DNA of 64,000 bases, from NCBI RefSeq assembly GCF_021729075.1, contig NZ_JAJSAQ010000002.1:62001-126000 (forward strand). The letters are read 5' to 3'. The notes beneath the pieces were generated by a model. That model worked only from the letters and a program-made list of their open reading frames with translations. It was not told the origin of the DNA and searched no databases. The DNA is from Microbulbifer guangxiensis. Its GTDB lineage: Bacteria > Pseudomonadota > Gammaproteobacteria > Pseudomonadales > Cellvibrionaceae. A program made the translations under genes and the position numbers. Below, one piece after another: positions 8,718 through 45,621 of this stretch. How positions within the stretch are numbered: position 1 is the first letter of the stretch; every line of letters begins with the position of its first letter.

Positions 8718-9329
8718 TCAGTTCAATGCGCGCAACGGCACATCCTTACGGTGGGTAATATCAGCGTCGAGGATCTTCACCAGGAATTCGGTCAGGATGC
8801 CCGCCGTAAAACCCCAGATCTCGTAGTCCTGGAACTGGTAGGCGGGAAGGTAGATGGCATGCTCGTCGATGGTGATGCGATCGGTGCGGATCCGCGGATC
8901 CTCCAGGAAAAACGATAGCGGTACACGAAAGATCGCGTCCAGCTCTCCCGGATTGGGGTACAGCTCCACGTCCGCCGACACCACACCCAGCCACGGCGTG
9001 ACGCGGACATTCCAGCGGGTGGAGCGCGGCCAGAGCGGGCCCAGGATTCGTACCTCCTCGGGTGGCAGCCCAATTTCCTCTTCGGTCTCCCGCAGGGCTG
9101 TGTATTTCAATGACCGGTCGCCGGGCTCCCAGCGGCCACCGGGAAAAGACACTTCACCGGAATGGGTGGAAAGATGTTGTGAGCGCAGGGTCAGAATGAC
9201 CTCCGGATCCGGCTCGTCGGTCAGGGCCAGCAATACTGCTGCGTGCCCCTCCAGATCGGGCCCCCTGGCAACCCTGCCCTCAAGCTTTGCCCGCAGGGTA
9301 GAAAATTTTGCCTCAATTTCAGCCAACAT
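8718..9329 (-). CDS. CoA-pyrophosphatase-type NUDIX hydrolase
   Basis: From ATG 9329 the product has 203 residues. The NUDIX box runs from G64 to G87 with the RETEEEIG core, and the SGEVSFPGGR segment just before it is characteristic of the NudL / CoA-diphosphatase branch. These enzymes cut coenzyme A into phosphopantetheine and 3',5'-ADP. The frame is open to 9377, which would add MVLPICLQAWRHAKNL; I prefer MLAEIEAKF because family members start close to this point. It lies 93 bases before the ABC exporter on the same strand, so co-transcription is possible. Confidence 0.8.
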   Translation of the reverse strand: MLAEIEAKFSTLRAKLEGRVARGPDLEGHAAVLLALTDEPDPEVILTLRSQHLSTHSGEVSFPGGRWEPGDRSLKYTALRETEEEIGLPPEEVRILGPLWPRSTRWNVRVTPWLGVVSADVELYPNPGELDAIFRVPLSFFLEDPRIRTDRITIDEHAIYLPAYQFQDYEIWGFTAGILTEFLVKILDADITHRKDVPLRALN

Positions 9330-9497
9330 AAGATTTTTAGCATGCCGCCAAGCCTGCAAGCATATTGGCAGCACCATACTCCGGAAAACCAGCTCTCTGC
9401 CATTCTATCCTGTGCCCGGCTTTTTCCGCCATTGACTCGTCTGCGCACAAACTGCACAGGAACCTGTTCCAATCGTCGGCGGCCAACACAAGGCTGG

Positions 9498-12400
9498 TCA
9501 GGATTCCAGGGTCCGCTCTATGTCGGTCGTTCCTGTTCCGCGCCCACGCTTCGCCCATTCGCGCACACGCTGCACCAGGGCGAAGTAGACGGGCACGAGG
9601 AAGGTGGAAAAGATACTGGCAGCCAGCATACCGCCCAACACCACCAGACCCAGGGAAACCCGACTGGCGGCACCGGCTCCGGTAGCGATGACCAGGGGGA
9701 AAATGCCGAGGACAAAGGAGAGTGCCGTCATCAGCACCGCGCGCAAACGCAGGCGGGTCGCTTCAAGGGCCGAATCCCTGATCGACAACCCCTTTTCCTG
9801 CCGTTGCACCACGGCAAATTCAGTCATCAGGATCGCGGTCTTGGCAGACATCGCGATGAGCAGCACCACCCCGATCTGCGTGTAGAGGTTATTTTCCCGG
9901 CCCATGATCCAAACGGCAAACATGCCACCGGCGATGGCAATGGGAACAGCCAGTAGTACGGCAATCGGTATTGCCCAGCTCTCGTACTGCGCCACCAGAA
10001 ACAGGTAGGCGAATATCAGGGCGAGCGTGAACAGGATCGGTGCCATATTTCCGGCCTCGATTTCCTCGAGGCTCGAGCCGGTCCACTCGAAGCTGTAGCC
10101 TTGGGGCATCTGCCCCGCGACCTCTTCCATCGCTTTCATTGCGTCGCCACTGGAATATCCCGGGGCCTGGCTACCGTTGATGATGATACTGTTGTAGAGG
10201 TTGTAGCGGTTGATGCTGAGCGGCCCCACCATGGGCTCGAATTCTGCCAACGCATTCATGGGGACCAGGTCACCGGCGCGATTGCGGGCAAAAAAACCAC
10301 TTAACACCGTCTCATCACTGCGAAACTGTGCATCCGCCTGTACCAGTACACGGAATACCTTGCCAAACCGGTTGAAATCATTCACATAAATACCGCCGAG
10401 ATAGGCCTGCAGTGTGGTGTACACATTCTCCAGCGGCAGATCGAGGGTATGAGTGCGGTCCTTGTCGATGATCAGCCGCAGCTGGGGTGTCGCCGACTGA
10501 TAGGTAGTGTAGGCAGAGCCAATTTCCGGCCGCTGGTTAGCCGATGCAAGTAATTCCTTCATGACCTCAGCCAACTCTGTAATGCTGCCGCCCTGAAGGT
10601 CCTCGAGCACAAAGGAAAACCCACCGACCGCGCCCAGCCCGGGTAATGCCGGCACTGGAAATGCCCCTACAGACGCCGAGGTAATGCCACCCATCAGCTG
10701 TTGAACACGATTCATGATCGCGAACTGGAACAACTCTGGATCGGTGCGCTCCTCCCAGGGATGCAGCATTACAATCATCATGGCCGCGTTCGAGGCGAGT
10801 GTGTTGGACAGCAGGTTGTAGCCGGGCACCGCGATCACATGGGCCACGCCTTCCTGCTCCAGCACCGTCTCGGTGATCTGTTGCACCACCGGCTCGGTGC
10901 GCTCGATCGAGGCGGCATCGGGCAACTGCACGTGCATCATGAAAAAACCCTTGTCCTCATCCGGGACAAACCCGGTGGGAACGGCCGAGAACAGGTACCA
11001 GCACAGAGCAACCACACCAGCGACCGTTGCCAACCCAAGCAGAGGTATGCCGACAAAGAACCCCACTATGCCCGTATAGATCCGGGACAACACTTCCAGT
11101 ATCCGGTTAAAAAAACCGAAAATACCACCGGTCTTTTGCCCCTCCCCACTGGTGCCCTCCTGTTTCCTGAGCAAGAGTGAGCAGAGCGCAGGGCTGAGCG
11201 TCAGGGCATTGATACTGGAAATCAGTACAGACACCGCAATGGTAATGGCAAACTGCTGGTACATCTTGCCGGTCAGGCCCGGCATTAGCATCACGGGAAC
11301 GAAAACCGCGAGCAGCACTGCGGTAGTGGCGATCACGGGACCCGTGACCTCTTTCATGGACTGAAGGGCTGCCTCTCTGGGCTTCATGCCCTCCTGCAAC
11401 AACCGCTGGGTATTTTCAACCACGATGACGGCATCATCGACGACAATACCGATGGCCAGGATCAGCGCAAACAGTGTCACGGTGTTGATCGTCATCCCGA
11501 TCGCAAACATCACGGCAAAAGTGCCGATCAGGGAGACCGGGATGGCGACGGCGGGAATCAGGGTGGCGCGCCAGTCCTGCAGAAACACAAATACCACAAT
11601 GATCACCAGCACCAGGGCAATTAGCAGTGTCTCCACCACTTCCTCGATGGAAGCCTCAACAAATTTTGTGGTGTCGTAAATGATTTCCGCCCGCAGCCCC
11701 TCGGGAAATCGCTGGCGCAGCTCCTCAAGACGCGCATGAACATCTTCAGAGACGTTGACGGCGTTGGCATCCGGCAGCTGGAAGATACCCATGACGGTAG
11801 AGGGCTTGCCATCCAGCAGGCCGAAAGCGCCGTAATAGCGGCTGCCCAGTTCCACTCGTGCCACATCGCCGAGACGCAGGATGCTGCCATCGACGCGCGA
11901 GCGGATACTGATCTTGGCAAACTCTTCCTCCTTGGCCAATCGTCCTTGCACGATGACGGCATATTCAAACTTCTGGTCTTCTTTCGCCGGGGCCGCCCCG
12001 ATCTTGCCCGCGGCTACCTGGACATTCTGCGCCCGGATCGCCTGGATGACATCCTGCGCGGTCACATTCAGGGCGGCCATTCGGTCGGGATTCAACCAGA
12101 TCCGCATGGCGTAGTCCTGGGCTCCGAGGATATTTACCTCGCTGACGCCGTTGATACGCGCCAGTTCATCCTTGATAAAGATTTCGCCATAGTTGGCCAG
12201 GAAAAGTGGATCCAGCGCCTCGCTGGCCCCCTCTTCGGCATAGATATTGACGATCAACAGCATGTCGGTGGACTTCTTCCGCACCTTGACGCCATTGCGC
12301 TTCACTTCCTCCGGCAGTTGCGGCAGCGCTTCCTGCACACGGTTCTGCACATTCACCTGCGCAATATCACCGTCGTAGCCGCTCTCAAATACGACCCGCA

Positions 12401-36466: not shown

Positions 36467-36537
36467 TTTGAGCCACCGCCCTCCGCGGTGGTGCTTCCCC
36501 AACCCATAACGATTTCAACCAGACGGGAATGCCAAAC

Positions 36538-38439
36538 ATGCAGTTCAACAAGACCCTGATTGCCGCGGCCATAAGCGCGCTGGTGATGACAGGCTGTGAC
36601 CGGGCCGAAGAAAAGCCGGCTCCGGGCCAGGACACCGAAATCAGTGCAGAGGCCTCGACGGGCAGTGTGACCGCCGACCAGTCCGCATCCACAGAAGAAA
36701 GCTCCGTCAACCCGGAGGTGGTGGCCAAGGCCAACCAGCTGTTCGAGGATCATTTCGAGGAGCTTCTGCAGCGGACCCCGGAATTCAAGACCTTCCTCGG
36801 CATGAAGGAAGACTATGACAAGTGGAATAACCTCTCGCCCGAGTTCGAGAAGGAAACCCATGAAATCGTTCAGCGCCAACTCGCAGAACTGAAAAAAATC
36901 GACGCGAGCCAGCTGGACGAAGCCACGGCACTGAGCCTCAAGCTGGCCATCCGCAACAAAGAGCAGGATATCGAAGGTTTCAAGTGGCGCTTGCATACCT
37001 ACCCTGTCAACCAGATGTACGCCGTGCACACCGGCGTTGCGTCATTGCTGATCAACCAGCACCGCATCGATAGTGTCGATGATGCCGAGGCCTATATCGC
37101 CCGATTGAACGCCCTGCCGGCGCATTTCGACCAACTGACTGCCAACCTCAAAGACCGGGCTGAAGCCGGCATCATCCCACCGAAGTTTGCCTTCCCCTAT
37201 GTCATCAGCGACGGCAAGAACCTGATTACCGGTGCGCCCTATACCGATGGCAAGGACAGTACGTTGCTGGCGGACTTCAAGGGCAAGGTGGACAAGCTGG
37301 AAATCAGCGATGAACAGAAGCAGGCGCTGGTGGAGAAAGCCAAGGCCGCCATGCTGGATAGTGTCAAACCCGCCTACGAAAACCTGATCGCTTACCTCGG
37401 CGAACTGGAGAAAAAGGCCAGTACTGATGACGGCGCCTGGAAATTTCCCGATGGTGACGACTATTACGCCCATCGCCTGAATGTTTATACCACCACCGAC
37501 ATGACCGCCGACGAGATTCACCAGAAGGGTCTCGAGGAAGTGGAGCGTATTCACGGTGAGATGCGCGAGATCATGGAACAGGTGGGCTTCGAGGGTTCCC
37601 TGCAGGAATTCTTCGAATTCATGCGCACCGACGATCAGTTCTACTATCCCAATACCGAAGAGGGCAAGCAGCGCTACCTGAAAGAAGCCACGGCCATCAT
37701 CGACAATATGAAGGAGCGCCTGGACGAGCTGTTTATCACCAAGCCGAAAGCCGACCTGATCGTGAAGGCCGTAGAACCCTTCCGCGAGAAATCCGCCGGC
37801 AAGGCGTTCTACCAGCGCCCTGCACCGGACGGCTCCCGCCCCGGCATCTATTACGCCAACCTGTACAACACCAAAGATATGCCCACCTACCAGATGGAGG
37901 CGCTGGCCTATCATGAGGGCGTGCCGGGCCACCACATGCAGCTGTCGATCGCCCAGGAGCTGGAAGGTATTCCCAAGTTCCGCAAGTTTGGCGGCTATAC
38001 CGCCTACACCGAGGGCTGGGGCCTCTACTCCGAGCTGGTGCCGAAGGAAATCGGCCTGTACAAGGATCCCTACTCCGACTTTGGTCGCCTGGCCATGGAG
38101 CTGTGGCGCGCCGCACGCCTGGTGGTCGACACCGGCATCCACAGCAAAAAGTGGACTCGAGAGGAAGCGATCAACTACCTGGGTGAAAACACTCCTAACC
38201 CGAAGGGGGACCAGGTCAAGGCCATCGAGCGCTATATCGTCATGCCCGGCCAGGCCACGGCCTACAAGATCGGCATGCTGAAGATTGTCGAACTGCGCGA
38301 GAATGCCCGGGAAGCACTGGGCGACCAGTTCGACATCCGCGCGTTCCACGATGTGGTCCTCGCCAACGGCGCCGTGCCGCTGGACGTGCTCGAGGAGCTG
38401 GTCGACGAGTGGGTTGCAGAAGTGAAGGCCCAGCAGTAA
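36538..38439 (+). CDS. DUF885 metallopeptidase-like lipoprotein (copy 2)
   Basis: ATG 36538 is preferred to ATG 36529 because the GGGA ribosome site is then nine bases away. The 633-residue product has a lipobox (VMTGC) and an acidic, E/S/T-rich linker. HEGVPGHHMQ at residues 459-468 is the zinc motif, and YTEGWGLYSELVPKEIG supplies the further ligand glutamate. FYQRPAPDGSRPGIYYANLY before the motif is typical of DUF885. It should act on peptides at the envelope; the substrate is unknown. It differs from the copy at 29.8 kb over most of its length, so it is not a recent duplicate. Confidence 0.85.
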   Translation: MQFNKTLIAAAISALVMTGCDRAEEKPAPGQDTEISAEASTGSVTADQSASTEESSVNPEVVAKANQLFEDHFEELLQRTPEFKTFLGMKEDYDKWNNLSPEFEKETHEIVQRQLAELKKIDASQLDEATALSLKLAIRNKEQDIEGFKWRLHTYPVNQMYAVHTGVASLLINQHRIDSVDDAEAYIARLNALPAHFDQLTANLKDRAEAGIIPPKFAFPYVISDGKNLITGAPYTDGKDSTLLADFKGKVDKLEISDEQKQALVEKAKAAMLDSVKPAYENLIAYLGELEKKASTDDGAWKFPDGDDYYAHRLNVYTTTDMTADEIHQKGLEEVERIHGEMREIMEQVGFEGSLQEFFEFMRTDDQFYYPNTEEGKQRYLKEATAIIDNMKERLDELFITKPKADLIVKAVEPFREKSAGKAFYQRPAPDGSRPGIYYANLYNTKDMPTYQMEALAYHEGVPGHHMQLSIAQELEGIPKFRKFGGYTAYTEGWGLYSELVPKEIGLYKDPYSDFGRLAMELWRAARLVVDTGIHSKKWTREEAINYLGENTPNPKGDQVKAIERYIVMPGQATAYKIGMLKIVELRENAREALGDQFDIRAFHDVVLANGAVPLDVLEELVDEWVAEVKAQQ

Positions 38440-38580: not shown

Positions 38581-39516
38581 TTACACCTTCACCGGTGACT
38601 TGTAGTCACTGGGCTTCAGTGCCAGCAGTGAGCAGCTGATGTGCTGAAGTATATTTTCTGCTGTATTGCCCATGATGAAACCCGGTATGCCAGTGCGGCC
38701 CACCGTTCCCATCACCAGGATATCCAGCTGTTTTTCCTCGATCAGCAGCGGGATAAACGAGTCCGGACGGGCAATGGCGTGGTGCACTTCCATCGGGCCC
38801 TCGATGCCGGCGGCATGGATCAGCGCGTCCAGCTTGCCCCGATGTTTGGAACCCGCCTTCTCCAGCGCCCGGTCGAGCTCCTCATCGGAGATATTGATGG
38901 GATAGTTGTGGCGCAGATATTCGTCCACGTCGTAGTCCCAGCACGACACCACGTGCAGCGTCCCACTGCAACTGTCGGCCAACGCCCTGGACAACCGCAG
39001 GAGACGAATGCTGAGGTCATAGGCACTGGGTTGCTCGTGCTCGGGATCCACCGCCACAACCACCCGGACCTCTTCACGGGGGTGTTCGATCCGCCGGCTC
39101 AGCCACACCGGGCAGGGGCACTTGCGCAGCAGCTCCATATCCATGGCCTTGAAGCCCTTGCGGTGATTGCGCCCCTCGACATTTTTTACCACCAGGTCAA
39201 AGTCTTCTTTCAGCACCCGCTGGATGATGCGCTCTGCGGGCGTATCGCCGGCATCCACATCGATCTCCGCCGGCACCTGCCCCTCATCGATCTTGAGCAG
39301 TTCCCGTGACTTCTTCAGCGACTGGCCGGCCCGTGCAATCAGTCCATCCGTATAGGCGCCCTCGTACTCCGTAAACCCATCCGGCAGGTCCGGGCAAACA
39401 ACCACAATCGTCAGGGGGGCACCGCTGACCCGCGCCACACTCAGCGCCTGCATCAATCCGTCGCTTTCATCAACGGTACCGTGGCTGACAAACAGTATTT
39501 TGCGGAAGTTCTGCAT
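38581..39516 (-). CDS. Tandem-domain universal stress protein (UspE-like)
   Basis: The 311-residue protein has two Usp domains. The first opens MQNFRKILFVSHGTVDESDGL and includes FDLVVKNVEGRNHRKG; the second opens VRVVVAVDPEHEQPSAYDLSIRLL and ends with the nucleotide-binding motif VMGTVGRTGIPGFIMGNTAENIL, a close match to GxxGxxG(S/T)-type ATP-binding Usp. These soluble proteins accompany survival under growth arrest and oxidative stress; mode of action is not settled. It diverges from the phosphorylase operon across a 172-base gap. Confidence 0.9.
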   Translation of the reverse strand: MQNFRKILFVSHGTVDESDGLMQALSVARVSGAPLTIVVVCPDLPDGFTEYEGAYTDGLIARAGQSLKKSRELLKIDEGQVPAEIDVDAGDTPAERIIQRVLKEDFDLVVKNVEGRNHRKGFKAMDMELLRKCPCPVWLSRRIEHPREEVRVVVAVDPEHEQPSAYDLSIRLLRLSRALADSCSGTLHVVSCWDYDVDEYLRHNYPINISDEELDRALEKAGSKHRGKLDALIHAAGIEGPMEVHHAIARPDSFIPLLIEEKQLDILVMGTVGRTGIPGFIMGNTAENILQHISCSLLALKPSDYKSPVKV

Positions 39517-39688: not shown

Positions 39689-41200
39689 ATGCGACATATC
39701 CCCCCGCTCACTGCGCACCTGATGGGTGTCGACACCCATGAAGAGCCCATTGTCTTCATGCGTAGTGACTGTGCCATCTGTCGCGCGGAGGGCTTCAGCG
39801 CCAACACCCGTCTGCAGGTACAGGCAGAAGAGCACAGTCTCATTGCCACACTCAATATCGTGAGCGACGAGCTTCTGGCTGAAGGCAGCATTGGGTTTTC
39901 CGACAGTGCCTGGGAGTTCCTGCAGCTGACTGAAGAACAACCGGTTCATGTCCGGCATGCGCCGCTGGTGCGCTCCCTCAGTGCCCTGCGTAAAAAAATC
40001 TATGGCCATGAACTGAACCCACTCGAAATCAAATCGATTGTTCACGACATCAGTCGACGCTTGTATTCGGATATCGAAATCGCCAGTTTCCTGACTGCCA
40101 GCGCTGCCGGCCACCTCTCTTCTGCTGAAGTCACCGCCCTGACCCGGGCCATGGTGAGCAGCGGCAACCAGTTGCACTGGTCCGGAGCCGAACGGATATT
40201 CGATAAACACTGCATCGGCGGCCTGCCCGGCAACCGGACAACGCCAATTGTCATCTCCATCGCCAGCGCCGCGGGGCTGATGATTCCGAAGACTTCCTCC
40301 CGCGCAATTACCTCACCTGCGGGCACGGCAGACACCATGGAGGAACTCACCGAGGTCGACCTGTCTCTCAAGCAGTTACAGGATGTGGTGGAACAAACGG
40401 GCGCCTGCCTGGCTGCTGGCGGCGAAGTAGGACTGAGCCCTGTCGATGACCTGCTGATCCGCATCGAACGGGCACTGGATCTGGACAGCCCCGGACAGCT
40501 GGTGGCCTCTGTATTGTCAAAGAAAGTCGCTGCCGGCTCTAACCACATACTGATCGATATGCCCGTAGGCCCCACCGCGAAACTGCGTTCCGTGGAAGAA
40601 GCCAACGAACTGGCCGCCCTGTTCCGTCAGGTTGCAAAAGCCATGAACCTGCAACTCCGGTGTGTGATCACCGACGGCACACAAGCCATCGGCTACGGTA
40701 TCGGCCCCAACCAGGAGGCTCGCGACGTGCTCTCCGTGCTCCGCAACAGCCCCGAGGCGCCACCAGACCTCGCTGAGCGCTCCCTGTTTCTGGCCGCAAA
40801 CATGCTGTCAATGGCATCCGGTGAAACCCTGGACGCCGTCCTGCCCAGAGCCAGGGAAATACTCCTCTCCGGACAGGCGTGGCAACAGTTTCAAAGAATC
40901 TGTACTGCCCAGGGGGGGCTCAAGACGCTACAAGAGGCACCCCATCACTGCCGCCTTCGGGCCCAGCGCACCGGCAAGCTGTTGGGCATGGACAACCGGC
41001 GACTCGCTCAGCTGGCGAAACTGGCAGGGGCCCCCAGCTCACCCCTCGCCGGACTGCGTTTACATGTCAAAGTCGGCGACAGCGTCATACCCGGCCAGCC
41101 ACTGGCCACACTTTATGCCGACACACCGGGAGAGCTGGCCTACGCACGGGACTACTACCATCAGAACCGCGACCTGTTCGATATCGGGGTCACACCGTGA
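39689..41200 (+). CDS. Thymidine/AMP phosphorylase-family enzyme
   Basis: The 503-residue protein has an 80-residue N-terminal extension followed by the phosphorylase core: a helical block starting IVHDISRRLYSDIEIASFLTA, DKHCIGGLPGNRTTPIVISIASAAGLMIPKTSSRA (phosphate/ribose site) and a C-terminal lipoyl-like domain (LHVKVGDSVIPGQPLATLY). Overall length and the N-terminal domain resemble archaeal AMP phosphorylase rather than 440-residue DeoA, so NMP + Pi to ribose-1,5-bisphosphate plus base is a plausible reaction. Its stop overlaps the next start (GTGA). Thymidine phosphorolysis remains an alternative. Confidence 0.82.
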   Translation: MRHIPPLTAHLMGVDTHEEPIVFMRSDCAICRAEGFSANTRLQVQAEEHSLIATLNIVSDELLAEGSIGFSDSAWEFLQLTEEQPVHVRHAPLVRSLSALRKKIYGHELNPLEIKSIVHDISRRLYSDIEIASFLTASAAGHLSSAEVTALTRAMVSSGNQLHWSGAERIFDKHCIGGLPGNRTTPIVISIASAAGLMIPKTSSRAITSPAGTADTMEELTEVDLSLKQLQDVVEQTGACLAAGGEVGLSPVDDLLIRIERALDLDSPGQLVASVLSKKVAAGSNHILIDMPVGPTAKLRSVEEANELAALFRQVAKAMNLQLRCVITDGTQAIGYGIGPNQEARDVLSVLRNSPEAPPDLAERSLFLAANMLSMASGETLDAVLPRAREILLSGQAWQQFQRICTAQGGLKTLQEAPHHCRLRAQRTGKLLGMDNRRLAQLAKLAGAPSSPLAGLRLHVKVGDSVIPGQPLATLYADTPGELAYARDYYHQNRDLFDIGVTP

Positions 41201-42120
41201 AACCACTCCTGATACCCATGGAGGCCGACCTTCCCCTTTCAACGCCACTCTGTGGGGCATTGGGGGCAGAAGCCATGGAGCTGGAGCGACGTCGTTTCCC
41301 CGACGGCGAGACTTACCTGCGTGTCATGGGCACGCTTGAGCAAAGGCACTGCATCGTCCTCGCGAACCTCACCAATCCCGACCCGGAAGTACCTGCCCTG
41401 TTGTTCCTGGCAGATACACTGCGGGAAATGGGGGCTGCCAAGGTTGGCCTGATCGCCCCCTATCTGTGCTACATGCGCCAGGACCGCCGTTTCCACCCGG
41501 GAGAGGCGGTGACCGCGCCCAGCTTTGCGCGCTTGATCTCCGCCTATTTCGACTGGCTTGTCTGTGTCGACCCGCATCTGCACCGCATTCACCATCTGGA
41601 TGAGGTTTATTCCATCCCCGCTACGGCAGTCAGTGCAGCTCCGGTACTCGCTGACTGGCTTGCTAAACGGGACGAGCCCTGCCTTCTGGTCGGACCAGAT
41701 GCGGAGAGCCGCCAGTGGGTCAGCACGGTAGCCGGGCACACGGGCAGCCCGATCGCGGTAGGGGAGAAACAACGCCTGGGAGATCGAACGGTTGAAATTA
41801 CTTTTAAAGGACTCGCCGACTTTGCCGGGTATACCGCAGTACTGCTCGACGATGTGATCTCCAGCGGACACACGATTCTGGAGTCGGTGGAGAAACTGAA
41901 GGCTGCAGGCTTCTCCAGAATCGACTGCCTGACGGTGCACGGGCTTTACGCCGAAGGGGCACAGGGGAAACTCAAAGACGCCGGCATTCGGCATCTGCTG
42001 GCAAGCAATAGTATCCCGGGATCCGGGAACACCCTGGACCTGAGCCCCGTCCTGGCCCCGGCCATCAAAGCGCTGCTGAAGAACTTCGCCGAAACATCGC
42101 AGGGAATAGCCAAATCATGA
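41197..42120 (+). CDS. Divergent ribose-phosphate pyrophosphokinase-like protein
   Basis: GTG 41197 overlaps the previous stop as GTGA. The 307-residue product keeps the PRPP-synthetase fold marks: RRFPDGETYLRV, YLCYMRQDRRFHPGE (ATP loop), VCVDPHLHRIHH and the PRPP-binding loop LLDDVISSGHTILE. It departs from housekeeping enzymes in the catalytic flexible loop and in LVGPDAESRQW, where the canonical protein has SPDxGGxxRA. It may make PRPP from ribose-5-phosphate and ATP or use a related sugar phosphate produced by its partner. Overlap on both sides (GTGA, ATGA) shows tight coupling. Confidence 0.82.
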   Translation: MKPLLIPMEADLPLSTPLCGALGAEAMELERRRFPDGETYLRVMGTLEQRHCIVLANLTNPDPEVPALLFLADTLREMGAAKVGLIAPYLCYMRQDRRFHPGEAVTAPSFARLISAYFDWLVCVDPHLHRIHHLDEVYSIPATAVSAAPVLADWLAKRDEPCLLVGPDAESRQWVSTVAGHTGSPIAVGEKQRLGDRTVEITFKGLADFAGYTAVLLDDVISSGHTILESVEKLKAAGFSRIDCLTVHGLYAEGAQGKLKDAGIRHLLASNSIPGSGNTLDLSPVLAPAIKALLKNFAETSQGIAKS

Positions 42121-43472
42121 ATATCCTTTTTCTGGGCGCCACCGAAACCGTCACCGGCTCCAAATTTCTGGTCGAACACAAGGACACCCGCCTGCTGGTG
42201 GACTGCGGCCTCTACCAGGGCTACAAATGGCTGCGGGAGCGCAACTGGCAAGCGCCGGATTTCGATATCAATACCATTGACGGCATCCTGCTGACCCACG
42301 CCCATCTGGATCATTCCGGCTACATCCCGCGGTTGTACAAACTGGGCTACAGGGGGCCGGTCTTCTGTCACCCGGCGACCCGCGACCTCTGTTCCATCCT
42401 GCTGCCAGACGCCGGGCATATACAGGAGGAAGACGCCCGCTTCTACGCCCGTCACCGCCTCAGCAAGCACGCCCACCCCGAACCTCTGTATGACGGCGAA
42501 ACCGCGGAACGCAGCCTGGAGCTGTTCCAGCCCATCGAATTTGGCGAGGAAGCCCAGGTCGGGGATATCACCTTCCACCTGCAGGGGGCCGGCCATATCC
42601 TCGGCGCCGGCAGCGCCATCCTGAAAGCCGATGGTAAACAGGTTGGATTCTCTGGCGACGTGGGCCGGCCGGACGATATCGTGATGTATCCCCCCGAGCC
42701 ACTGCCCCCTCTCGACCTGTTGATGCTCGAATCCACCTACGGTGACCGCCGTCACCCGGACCTGGATGTCTGTGGCGAACTCAACCGGGTCGTCAACGAA
42801 GCCGTGTCACGGGGCGGGGTACTGCTGATCCCGAGCTTTGCGGTGGGCCGCGCCCAGATGCTCCAGCATATGCTGGTATCCGCCATGAAGGCCGGTGAAA
42901 TTCCCAAGCTGCCGGTTTTTCTCGATAGTCCCATGGCGATCGACGCATCGCATATTTACCAGCGCTATCCAGAACTCCACCGACTCACTGAGTCACAATG
43001 CCGGGAAATGGGCCGGCTGGTCACTTACACCCGGGACGTCGAGGAATCGAAAGCACTGGAACAGATCACCTACCCCCACATCATCATCGCTGGCAGCGGC
43101 ATGGCCACCGGGGGCCGGATACTCCATCACATGAAGCGGTTGCTGCCCAACCATCGCACGACAGTGCTGTTTGTCGGTTTTCAGGCAGGGGGCACGCGCG
43201 GAGCCCGGATGGTCGCCGGGGCGGACTCGGTGAAAATCCACGGGGAATATGTGCCCTGCAAGGCGCAGGTGGAGATGCTGGACGGGCTCTCTGCCCACGG
43301 GGACTTCGAGGACCTGACCCAATGGCTGCTGCAGTCGCGGCTCGAGAAGGGTACGAGAATCCAGCTGGTCCACGGGGAGCCCGATGCCGCCGATTGCATG
43401 CGGCTGCACCTCAATGATCACACCCCGTTCCGGGTGAAGGTGGCGCAGTACCGACAGATACTGCGCCTCTGA
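42117..43472 (+). CDS. Metallo-beta-lactamase/beta-CASP nuclease
   Basis: The 451-residue protein starts at ATG 42117, overlapping the preceding TGA. THAHLDHSGYIPRLYK holds the metal motif HxHxDH (61-66); GAGHILGAGSAI and FSGDVGRPDDI follow, then the beta-CASP domain (PSFAVGRAQML, GSGMATGGRILHHMKRL) and a final HGEPDA. It is the RNA-specificity (RMMBL) type, related to CPSF73/RNase J-like proteins, so RNA cleavage is expected. Co-encoding with a nucleoside-phosphate phosphorylase and a PRPP-synthetase-like protein suggests a shared role in recycling RNA-derived ribose phosphates. Confidence 0.88.
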   Translation: MNILFLGATETVTGSKFLVEHKDTRLLVDCGLYQGYKWLRERNWQAPDFDINTIDGILLTHAHLDHSGYIPRLYKLGYRGPVFCHPATRDLCSILLPDAGHIQEEDARFYARHRLSKHAHPEPLYDGETAERSLELFQPIEFGEEAQVGDITFHLQGAGHILGAGSAILKADGKQVGFSGDVGRPDDIVMYPPEPLPPLDLLMLESTYGDRRHPDLDVCGELNRVVNEAVSRGGVLLIPSFAVGRAQMLQHMLVSAMKAGEIPKLPVFLDSPMAIDASHIYQRYPELHRLTESQCREMGRLVTYTRDVEESKALEQITYPHIIIAGSGMATGGRILHHMKRLLPNHRTTVLFVGFQAGGTRGARMVAGADSVKIHGEYVPCKAQVEMLDGLSAHGDFEDLTQWLLQSRLEKGTRIQLVHGEPDAADCMRLHLNDHTPFRVKVAQYRQILRL

Positions 43473-44221: not shown

Positions 44222-45319
44222 TCAGTGCCAGCGATAGCGCAGGGGATTCTCCGCACTGCCGATCGGCGCCCGGTAACCAGTGAGATCGATCGGGTCCTCT
44301 TCCGCCCCGGCACTCAGCCGGCGGTTCAGGGCCAGAGCATCGCGCAGGCGATCCAGACTCACGGTCGGGGTCACGGAAAAGCGCAACCGGTCGTTATCGG
44401 CCGCCAGCAGTTCGGCACCGCGAACCTGGGCCAGCCCCTGCAGGTAGGCGATGGCACCGGTGTAATCGGCGAACTCGTTGATACCGGAAAGCTCCAGCAC
44501 CAGCGCATTCTGCGGGCCGGTTTCGCCATTGGTGTGCACCGCATAGCGCTGGGCCAGCATGTTCGCGGCCCCATCGATGCCCTGCTGCGCAACTTCCTCG
44601 AGGGAGTTACCAGTGGCATCAAACGCATGGGCCCGACCGCCGTGAATCAGCAGCCAGTTGGCCTGCCAGCGGTCCGTGGACAGTTCCAGTGCACGCCCCA
44701 TCAGGGTGGCATCCGGCCGGTAACGCACACCGGCCCGCTCCGCCGCGCGCTCGTCCTGGGCCCAGAGGTTGCCCAGCGGCATGGCACTGCGATCAACGGC
44801 ATCCATGGCCGGGAAGTCCACCGGCAGGCCGCGGTCGATGGCCATGGCCTCCAGTGCCGCAAAGAGCTCCGGCGAATCCTGCTCACCCAGTGCCGCGCGC
44901 CCGCCCTGCAGGGTGTCTGCCGCCAGCCAGACCAGAGTGCCCGGGCGATTGTTCGGCCACAGCGGCAACTTCAGGGCGTGGACCCGCTCAGACACCGCCT
45001 GGGGGTCGTAGGACAGGTGCAGATAGAGCTGGTTTTCCTCTACTTCGTAGCGATAGCTCTGCAGAAAGCGCTGTGCCCGCTGCAGTTCGGCGCGCAACTG
45101 CGGGTCACTGCCGATGGCGGCATCCCCAGTAACGCGCACGAACACCCGCTCCAGGCCCCGGCGCGCCGCATCTGCGCGGTCCGTAGCGCCACGGCTGGGC
45201 ACGGCCTCAACCACCTCGTACAGGTCCGCCACCACCCGCGCCTGGGCAGGCATCACCAGGGCGCACAGCAACAGCGCTATCAAATGAGCCGCCAGTCCGT
45301 GCCGGAGCAGCTTGTGCAT
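44222..45319 (-). CDS. DUF2066 secreted protein
   Basis: ATG 45319 follows GGGAGAGATCCG. The 365-residue product has a signal peptide (LIALLLCALVMPAQA) and the DUF2066 body: VTGDAAIGSDPQLRAELQRAQRFLQSYRYE and WPNNRPGTLVWLAAD. The family role is unknown, but it is regularly paired with hda and purM. The open frame continues upstream to 45607, where it overlaps purM's 5' region; that part is not coding. Divergent from purM with about 300 bases between starts. Confidence 0.88.
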   Translation of the reverse strand: MHKLLRHGLAAHLIALLLCALVMPAQARVVADLYEVVEAVPSRGATDRADAARRGLERVFVRVTGDAAIGSDPQLRAELQRAQRFLQSYRYEVEENQLYLHLSYDPQAVSERVHALKLPLWPNNRPGTLVWLAADTLQGGRAALGEQDSPELFAALEAMAIDRGLPVDFPAMDAVDRSAMPLGNLWAQDERAAERAGVRYRPDATLMGRALELSTDRWQANWLLIHGGRAHAFDATGNSLEEVAQQGIDGAANMLAQRYAVHTNGETGPQNALVLELSGINEFADYTGAIAYLQGLAQVRGAELLAADNDRLRFSVTPTVSLDRLRDALALNRRLSAGAEEDPIDLTGYRAPIGSAENPLRYRWH

Positions 45320-45621
45320 CGGATCTCTCCCAACATCGTGTTTCTTGACGGGCCAATCCGCCCGACAGTGGTCTGGGGCGGGAGATTGGCCGCGGAGCAG
45401 GACCTCAGCCTGCCTCCGAGCGGCTATTGTATCAGTGTCGGCTTTTTCTCCCAGCCCCGAGTTCGCACAATGGCACACCAGCCGCGTCGACGGCCCATCC
45501 TCGGGGCTCAGGGAGACAAATCCCGTCCGACAGACGGCAGATCGGCACAGGGCGTGGCTACGCGGGCGACTCCGGGCTAGAATACGCGCCCTCTCGAATC
45601 CCCCCATTTGCAGGAAGAATC

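Follow-up and report, generated by a model that had tools for sequence, protein, structure and literature searches.

A candidate two-gene module for ribose-1,5-bisphosphate in Microbulbifer guangxiensis: an AMP-phosphorylase-type enzyme and a PRPP-synthetase relative with an altered loop

In the archaeal nucleoside monophosphate (NMP) phosphorylase pathway, as given in the available passages of PMC9700705, Thermococcus kodakarensis TK0352 is an NMP phosphorylase making ribose-1,5-bisphosphate (R15P), on which an R15P isomerase and then a type III ribulose-1,5-bisphosphate carboxylase/oxygenase (RuBisCO) act. The same passages present Escherichia coli PhnN as an R15P kinase, which makes phosphoribosyl pyrophosphate (PRPP) by transfer of a single phosphate (PMC9700705). 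Here we describe two overlapping genes of Microbulbifer guangxiensis, in a stretch of 64,000 nucleotides (contig NZ_JAJSAQ010000002.1, positions 62,001 to 126,000) that we term the window. The first encodes an NMP-phosphorylase-type protein and the second a relative of PRPP synthetase (Prs), here called Prs-like; a gene for a beta-CASP ribonuclease (RNase) follows them and completes a trio. To our knowledge, no fate of R15P outside the isomerase/RuBisCO route and PhnN has been established.

The same three annotations recur in an operon of Bradyrhizobium diazoefficiens, bll3117-bll3116-bll3115 (available parts of PMC6515984 and PMC9104804). In microoxia (0.5% O2) these genes are up at the protein level (log2 2.1, 4.4 and 2.9, in that order) and at the transcript level (5.1-, 7.7- and 15.4-fold; PMC6515984, Table 2). 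Without fixK2, bll3117 and bll3115 are down 6.6- and 30.6-fold; the genes are predicted to form one operon, and -74 is given as the position of a putative FixK2 box (PMC9104804, Table 2). The passages available from these two papers give the trio no function (PMC6515984, PMC9104804), and among open-licence papers our search found none that says what the pair does or that reports an exclusion of RuBisCO. The trio is already published as an operon; the Prs-like signature, the reliance of Prs-like on the phosphorylase in bacteria and archaea alike and the archaeal exclusion of RuBisCO are, as far as our searches go, unreported.

From the sequences we favour, tentatively and at somewhat less than even confidence, the view that phosphorylase and Prs-like would form a two-gene module handling R15P without RuBisCO, in which the Prs-like protein would replace isomerase and RuBisCO as the consumer of R15P, most likely making PRPP. 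It is placed there because of its near-obligate partnership with the phosphorylase, the exclusion of RuBisCO in an archaeal sample and the absence, from the genome of the window, of any enzyme known to consume R15P.

Partnership of the two genes and the archaeal exclusion of RuBisCO

Eighty loci were picked by similarity to Prs alone. The phosphorylase gene lies directly upstream of the Prs-like gene, on the same strand, in 74 of them, and L037 clusters both in another order. Five loci, four of Woesearchaeota and one of Pokkaliibacter, have no phosphorylase in the locus; the four Woesearchaeota genomes encode one elsewhere, in each case over the TIGR02645 cut-off. In a sample of 274 genomes of the class to which the window belongs (Gammaproteobacteria), presence being called by the NF005537 (Prs-like) and NF003338 (phosphorylase) cut-offs, phosphorylase was found in 59 genomes, Prs-like in 53 and both in 51 (Fisher p = 3e-44). 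Prs-like matches under the cut-off included, a Prs-like gene sits directly downstream of 57 of the 61 phosphorylase genes in this sample; G058, G123, G146 and G216 have a phosphorylase without an adjoining Prs-like gene. Phosphorylase and Prs-like form a conserved two-gene core, and their association is not chance. Beyond these two and the RNase, clustering of predicted genes found no gene family in more than 11 of the 80 loci.

Plasmids also carry the trio, in both gene orders. Of 103 matched plasmid records, 30 are from Sphingobium. In the class sample, the genomes G004 and G065 each hold the pair in two copies.

The archaeal sample comprised 147 genomes, of unstated completeness, from the phylum of the Woesearchaeota genome G277. 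Its Prs-like genes were delimited at 230 bits, at a gap between scores of 232 and 181, a border that the loop sequence supports; of the 34 carriers, 13 exceed the NF005537 cut-off and 21 lie between 232 and 321 bits. Phosphorylase occurs in 93 of the 147 genomes (over cut-off in 92) and in every one of the 34 with Prs-like (p = 1.8e-8). No genome of this sample has the two genes side by side; the shortest distance between them is 3.9 kb (G337). Against TIGR03327, the AMP_phos equivalog model, 26 of the 34 phosphorylases that partner an archaeal Prs-like reach E 1e-160, which is about its cut-off.

RuBisCO is found in 41 archaeal genomes, 38 of them with phosphorylase. The 93 phosphorylase genomes divide into 38 with RuBisCO, 34 with Prs-like, none with both and 21 with neither (p = 5e-11). 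R15P-isomerase-like rows, cut at E 1e-60, come from 22 of the 147 genomes, none over the model cut-off; short-frame genes of this kind occur in 18 of the 93 phosphorylase genomes and in none together with Prs-like (p = 1.8e-4), a count from which G292, G330 and G367 were dropped, their genes being taken for methylthioribose-1-phosphate isomerase.

A phosphorylase gene tree, built by a quick method and used as a stand-in for a species tree, held 92 archaeal rows (the fragment from G288 was dropped) and 12 bacterial rows, the bacteria forming one fully supported group. On it the Prs-like label needs 10 changes, 6 of them forced by strongly supported branches, and the RuBisCO label 18, with 9 forced; rows of the two kinds alternate at least 8 times. 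Independent traits simulated on this tree gave a mean of 13.1 joint genomes, and zero in a fraction of 4.4e-6 of 2.25 million pairs. RuBisCO carriers have smaller genomes (0.99 against 1.21 Mb), and genome size was considered as a cause of the exclusion. It was rejected because joint genomes number 0 in each of four size classes (p = 0.051 at 1.4 Mb and above); when only the 67 genomes that reach 1.0 Mb are counted, 31 have Prs-like, 17 have RuBisCO and none has both.

At E 1e-10 neither RuBisCO nor R15P isomerase has a match in the genome of the window itself, and the best PhnN match there, at 50.5 bits, is under the cut-off of 156; we guess that this match is a guanylate kinase. Likewise, none of the 53 Prs-like carriers of the class sample has an R15P isomerase over cut-off.

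Several observations weigh against R15P use by the Prs-like protein. RuBisCO, its form not typed, is present in 33 of the 53 class carriers, and because the two coexist there the exclusion is claimed for the archaeal sample only; the RuBisCOs of the class, without an isomerase, would not be fed by R15P. Isomerase matches under the cut-off do occur in 38 of the 53, at up to 211 of the 314 bits required, and we take them, as an assumption, for methylthioribose-1-phosphate isomerase. PhnN is over cut-off in 4 of the 53 and just under in one more (G033). Some Prs-like genes lack the partner: G145 and G232 have no phosphorylase at E 1e-90, the Pokkaliibacter locus (L041, 8001-8864) has a GPDxES-type Prs-like in a genome with no NMP phosphorylase match over cut-off, and two plasmid stretches, L105 (Sphingomonas sp. 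MM-1 plasmid pISP0, gene at 8995-9903) and L111 (8881-9807), have no phosphorylase nearby. In archaea, the 21 of 93 phosphorylase genomes with neither partner (for example G282, G290 and G295) are either incomplete genomes or hold a third R15P route. The three isomerase-like genes set aside above, with frames of 338-371 residues, all come from Prs-like carriers, and the overlap is 3 if they are counted. An independent-pairs test on the supported branches was not significant: nine pairs differ in RuBisCO, with Prs-like differing in the opposite direction in 2.5 on average, in the same direction in 0 and not at all in 6.5. The phosphorylase of the window misses the TIGR03327 cut-off (448.4 against 535 bits). 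Finally, PRPP synthetases transfer diphosphate, while a kinase reaction leads from R15P to PRPP, which would require altered chemistry on the same fold; because a single phosphate transfer is needed, PRPP as the product is the least certain step.

The Prs-like of L105 adjoins copper-resistance genes, on a conjugative plasmid.

The altered loop and the proposed reaction of the Prs-like protein

The Prs-like protein exceeds the cut-off of NF005537 (PRK07199, a ribose-phosphate diphosphokinase subfamily) with 353.4 against 322 bits, and the PRPP-synthetase fold spans nearly its full length. Its loop reads GPDAESRQW, where the other two Prs genes in this genome have SPDIGG and SPDVGG; neither the canonical SPDxGG nor the archaeal PDxGA loop is present in it. 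The form (G/A)PDxE(S/A)xxW replaces SPDxGG in all 64 aligned relatives, a number set by the crude gene caller, which lost the Prs-like gene in 16 of the 80 loci; the 34 archaeal genes all have GPDxESx(Q/K)W. The ATP and 5-phosphate motifs of PRPP synthetases are kept (FxDxE, RQD, the K and R of the catalytic loop and the DD ribose-5-phosphate loop). In 25 aligned rows F34, D36, R94, Q95, D96, K191, R193, D218 and D219 are invariant and E38 is nearly so.

A gene found in locus L002, from the window's own genome (contig C5:165111-165470), is a third Prs gene, which its VPYLCYGRKD and SPDVGG set apart from the canonical copy as well as from Prs-like.

In the reaction sequence that we propose, the phosphorylase would convert NMP and phosphate to base and R15P, as its family and signature residues suggest. 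The Prs-like protein would consume R15P, most likely by ATP-dependent phosphorylation to PRPP, and the RNase, where present, would feed the pathway with nucleotides from RNA, as its linkage suggests. Put more broadly, and with less than even confidence, GPDxES proteins may be a new family of PRPP-synthetase fold that uses R15P and takes the place of the isomerase/RuBisCO branch, both in Proteobacteria and among many archaea with small genomes. The NMP phosphorylase pathway would then have a second end, one that conserves carbon and leads from RNA ribose to PRPP.

The best-surviving alternative, a serious rival that we regard as less likely, makes Prs-like a PRPP synthetase isozyme of the usual kind, with ribose-5-phosphate as substrate. 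In such a salvage module the phosphorylase would free bases and Prs-like would supply the PRPP for their reuse, the archaeal exclusion then reflecting the Prs type of each lineage. The fold over nearly the whole length and the kept catalytic motifs fit this. So does the finding that G275 and G277, two of the four archaeal genomes checked (completeness not stated), yielded no Pribosyltran_N gene other than Prs-like, on which PRPP in these genomes therefore probably depends. An isozyme would, however, leave R15P without a known consumer in the genome of the window, which already has two other Prs genes. It would also leave unexplained the conserved change of the loop, and why the phosphorylase accompanies Prs-like in all 34 archaeal carriers and RuBisCO accompanies it in none.

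The SPDxGG loop belongs to the pyrophosphate site of PRPP synthetase. Prs-like might exchange a single phosphate at C1 (R15P + AMP <-> ribose-5-phosphate + ADP), a one-phosphate counterpart of what PRPP synthetase does. NMPs would then be connected with the pentose phosphate pool and, in genomes that have these enzymes, with phosphoketolase and acetate kinase. Such an exchange, a serious rival although we consider it improbable, keeps the chemistry of PRPP synthetase and asks for a change in the pyrophosphate site only, the very part in which the family is altered; some copies have phosphoketolase or acetate kinase genes nearby, and a phosphoketolase-acetate kinase unit stands in the same fixK2 table as the Bradyrhizobium trio (available part of PMC9104804, Table 2). 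Against it, the energy-yielding direction is uphill on energetic grounds, and phosphoketolase-like genes (Pfam-confirmed in L017, L035 and L106) are found near only 4 of the 80 loci when sought by tblastn and near 6 when predicted genes are clustered, and in 1 of 8 plasmid stretches, too rarely for phosphoketolase to be part of the core.

Returning to R15P use by Prs-like, the initial annotation had already proposed much of it. The PRPP-synthetase relative with an altered SPDxGG region is now seen to belong to a family that shares the change and keeps the catalytic residues. The trios that it suggested looking for in other genomes do exist, plasmids included, with the RNase clustered in 25 of the 80 loci. 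Its remark that no archaeal RuBisCO route is visible holds for the whole genome as regards RuBisCO and R15P isomerase, and no PhnN is over cut-off there either. Of its central idea, a PRPP-synthetase relative that handles R15P, the archaeal exclusion of RuBisCO supports the use of R15P, while the formation of PRPP is still a prediction from sequence.

If R15P is the substrate, one enzyme adjoining the phosphorylase in most of the bacterial loci seen would account for the fate of R15P. The second 'ribose-phosphate pyrophosphokinase' and the 'thymidine phosphorylase' annotated in many Proteobacteria would be explained, small-genome archaea without RuBisCO would gain a route from nucleotides to PRPP, and a function would be suggested for the microoxia-induced Bradyrhizobium operon.

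The phosphorylase, the RNase and the layout of the locus

The phosphorylase of the window exceeds the cut-offs of NF003338 (617.6 bits against 434) and TIGR02645 (532.8 against 434.6), and its archaeal relatives L148 and L135 exceed that of TIGR03327. Thymidine and pyrimidine phosphorylase models score far under their cut-offs (TIGR02643, 128.1 of 570.7 bits; NF004490, 190.3 of 269; TIGR02644, 187.8 of 409.05). The closest solved chain is 4ga5 (E 1.1e-90), titled putative thymidine phosphorylase, which we take to be the T. kodakarensis AMP phosphorylase; the best pyrimidine phosphorylase reaches only 4e-36. SSRAITS is common to the window protein and 4ga5, and nearly so in the archaeal sample, where the pyrimidine nucleoside phosphorylase 5ep8 has SGRGLGH. 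In the alignment with 4ga5 and 92 archaeal rows the archaeal-type features SSRxITS and N182 are both present, and 20 positions are conserved across the window protein, its relatives, the archaeal sample and 4ga5 and are different in 5ep8. About 95 residues precede the thymidine-phosphorylase-like part, that is, the part aligned to 5ep8.

These features point to a phosphorylase of AMP-phosphorylase type, which would split NMPs with phosphate into base and R15P. That it acts instead on nucleosides (thymidine or uridine), giving ribose-1-phosphate for a phosphopentomutase and thereby ribose-5-phosphate for an ordinary PRPP synthetase, has little chance of being right: the annotation of relatives (thymidine phosphorylase family protein), the like names of NF003338 and TIGR02645 and the missed AMP_phos cut-off speak for it, and the low scores of the thymidine and pyrimidine models and the 20 positions speak against it.

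The third protein exceeds the cut-offs of PF10996, PF07521 and PF12706 (Beta-Casp, RMMBL and metallo-beta-lactamase domains), its best solved chain is RNase TTHA0252 (E 2.4e-72), and the equivalog cut-offs of aCPSF1 (261.9 of 580.2 bits) and type VII Cas14 (326.6 of 800) are not reached. Its clustered occurrences are 21 downstream of Prs-like, 3 upstream of the phosphorylase and 1 between the two; it lies elsewhere in the locus in 6 of the 80 and was not found in 49, some of these on short contigs. Because only 25 loci cluster it, we treat the RNase as an optional partner, and the RNA step is correspondingly conjectural.

The three genes overlap in the order phosphorylase, Prs-like, RNase (Table 1). 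Here the initial annotation was exact as to the overlapped operon, its coordinates, its strand and the joins GTGA and ATGA, and domain make-up and similarity to TTHA0252 agree with the beta-CASP nuclease that it had named as the third gene. Its AMP-phosphorylase-like first gene stands as to type, the thymidine and pyrimidine models being far under cut-off; equivalog status does not, the TIGR03327 cut-off being missed.

Table 1. Coordinates of the trio, its signature stretches and the upstream gene (positions in the window)
Feature	Position	Strand	Remarks
Universal stress protein gene, divergent, upstream of the trio	38581..39516	-	PF00582, 101.4 bits
NMP(AMP)-phosphorylase-type gene	39689..41200	+	503 residues, ATG start; NF003338 and TIGR02645 over cut-off; 4ga5, E 1.1e-90
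SSRAITS stretch, phosphorylase residues 203-209	40295..40315	+	Alignment with 4ga5 and archaeal rows
GTGA overlap, phosphorylase stop and Prs-like start	41197..41200	+	
Prs-like gene, GPDxES family	41197..42120	+	307 residues, GTG start
GPDAESRQWV loop, Prs-like residues 166-175, in place of canonical SPDxGG	41692..41721	+	
ATGA overlap, Prs-like stop and RNase start	42117..42120	+	
Beta-CASP ribonuclease gene, TTHA0252/CPSF type, optional third member	42117..43472	+	451 residues, ATG start; PF10996, PF07521, PF12706

The divergent universal stress protein gene and the trio have the same layout in the Microbulbifer loci L004-L006; in Bradyrhizobium septentrionale (L108) such a gene also precedes the trio, but on the same strand. 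The flanking genes at 36529-38439 and 44222-45607 belong to the uncharacterised families DUF885 and DUF2066.

Boxes of the FNR/FixK2 type were sought in 79 of 88 loci by scanning for TTGATNNNNATCAA over as many as 300 bases ahead of the cluster, leaving out loci without a same-strand phosphorylase or in which the sequence ahead of the cluster was too short; the L047 row is a contig-edge artefact. The boxes are not enriched: 4 of 79 loci have one with no more than a single mismatch, as do 27 of 798 control genes taken from these loci. In the intergenic region of the window the best match has 3 mismatches. Promoter-like sites number 1, against 0.9 expected from shuffles. For these reasons of enrichment and mismatch, low-oxygen control is not claimed for the trio of the window, and low-oxygen induction in its organism would be a guess by analogy. 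The lxa locus of Burkholderia, considered as a lead, was not used, as the available passages of PMC6127331, PMC3759415 and PMC3966863 name a metallo-beta-lactamase protein, not a phosphorylase.

Comparison with described systems

The operon of B. diazoefficiens is likened to the trio by annotation, whereas kinship by sequence was seen for B. septentrionale (L108). A putative FixK2 box belongs to the former operon; none was found upstream of the trio in the window. With the beta-CASP nucleases of the Thermus thermophilus TTHA0252 and CPSF type, its closest solved relatives, the third protein shares its domain make-up, but its gene sits in a metabolic operon.

The PhnN fold is unrelated to that of PRPP synthetase, and its reaction, R15P to PRPP, is the same as the one proposed for Prs-like. 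With the archaeal PRPP synthetases (T. volcanium, 3mbi and 3lpn; M. jannaschii, 1u9y) Prs-like shares the fold, the ATP motifs, the catalytic K and R and the DD..S.G.T loop; compared with 1u9y, it has a GPDxESxQW-type loop for APDKGA and HLHR for PHE. The archaeal NMP phosphorylase pathway begins with an enzyme of the same family as the phosphorylase described here, the signature residues being common to both. It ends in isomerase and RuBisCO, whereas the genome of the window, with no match to either, has a GPDxES Prs-like partner.

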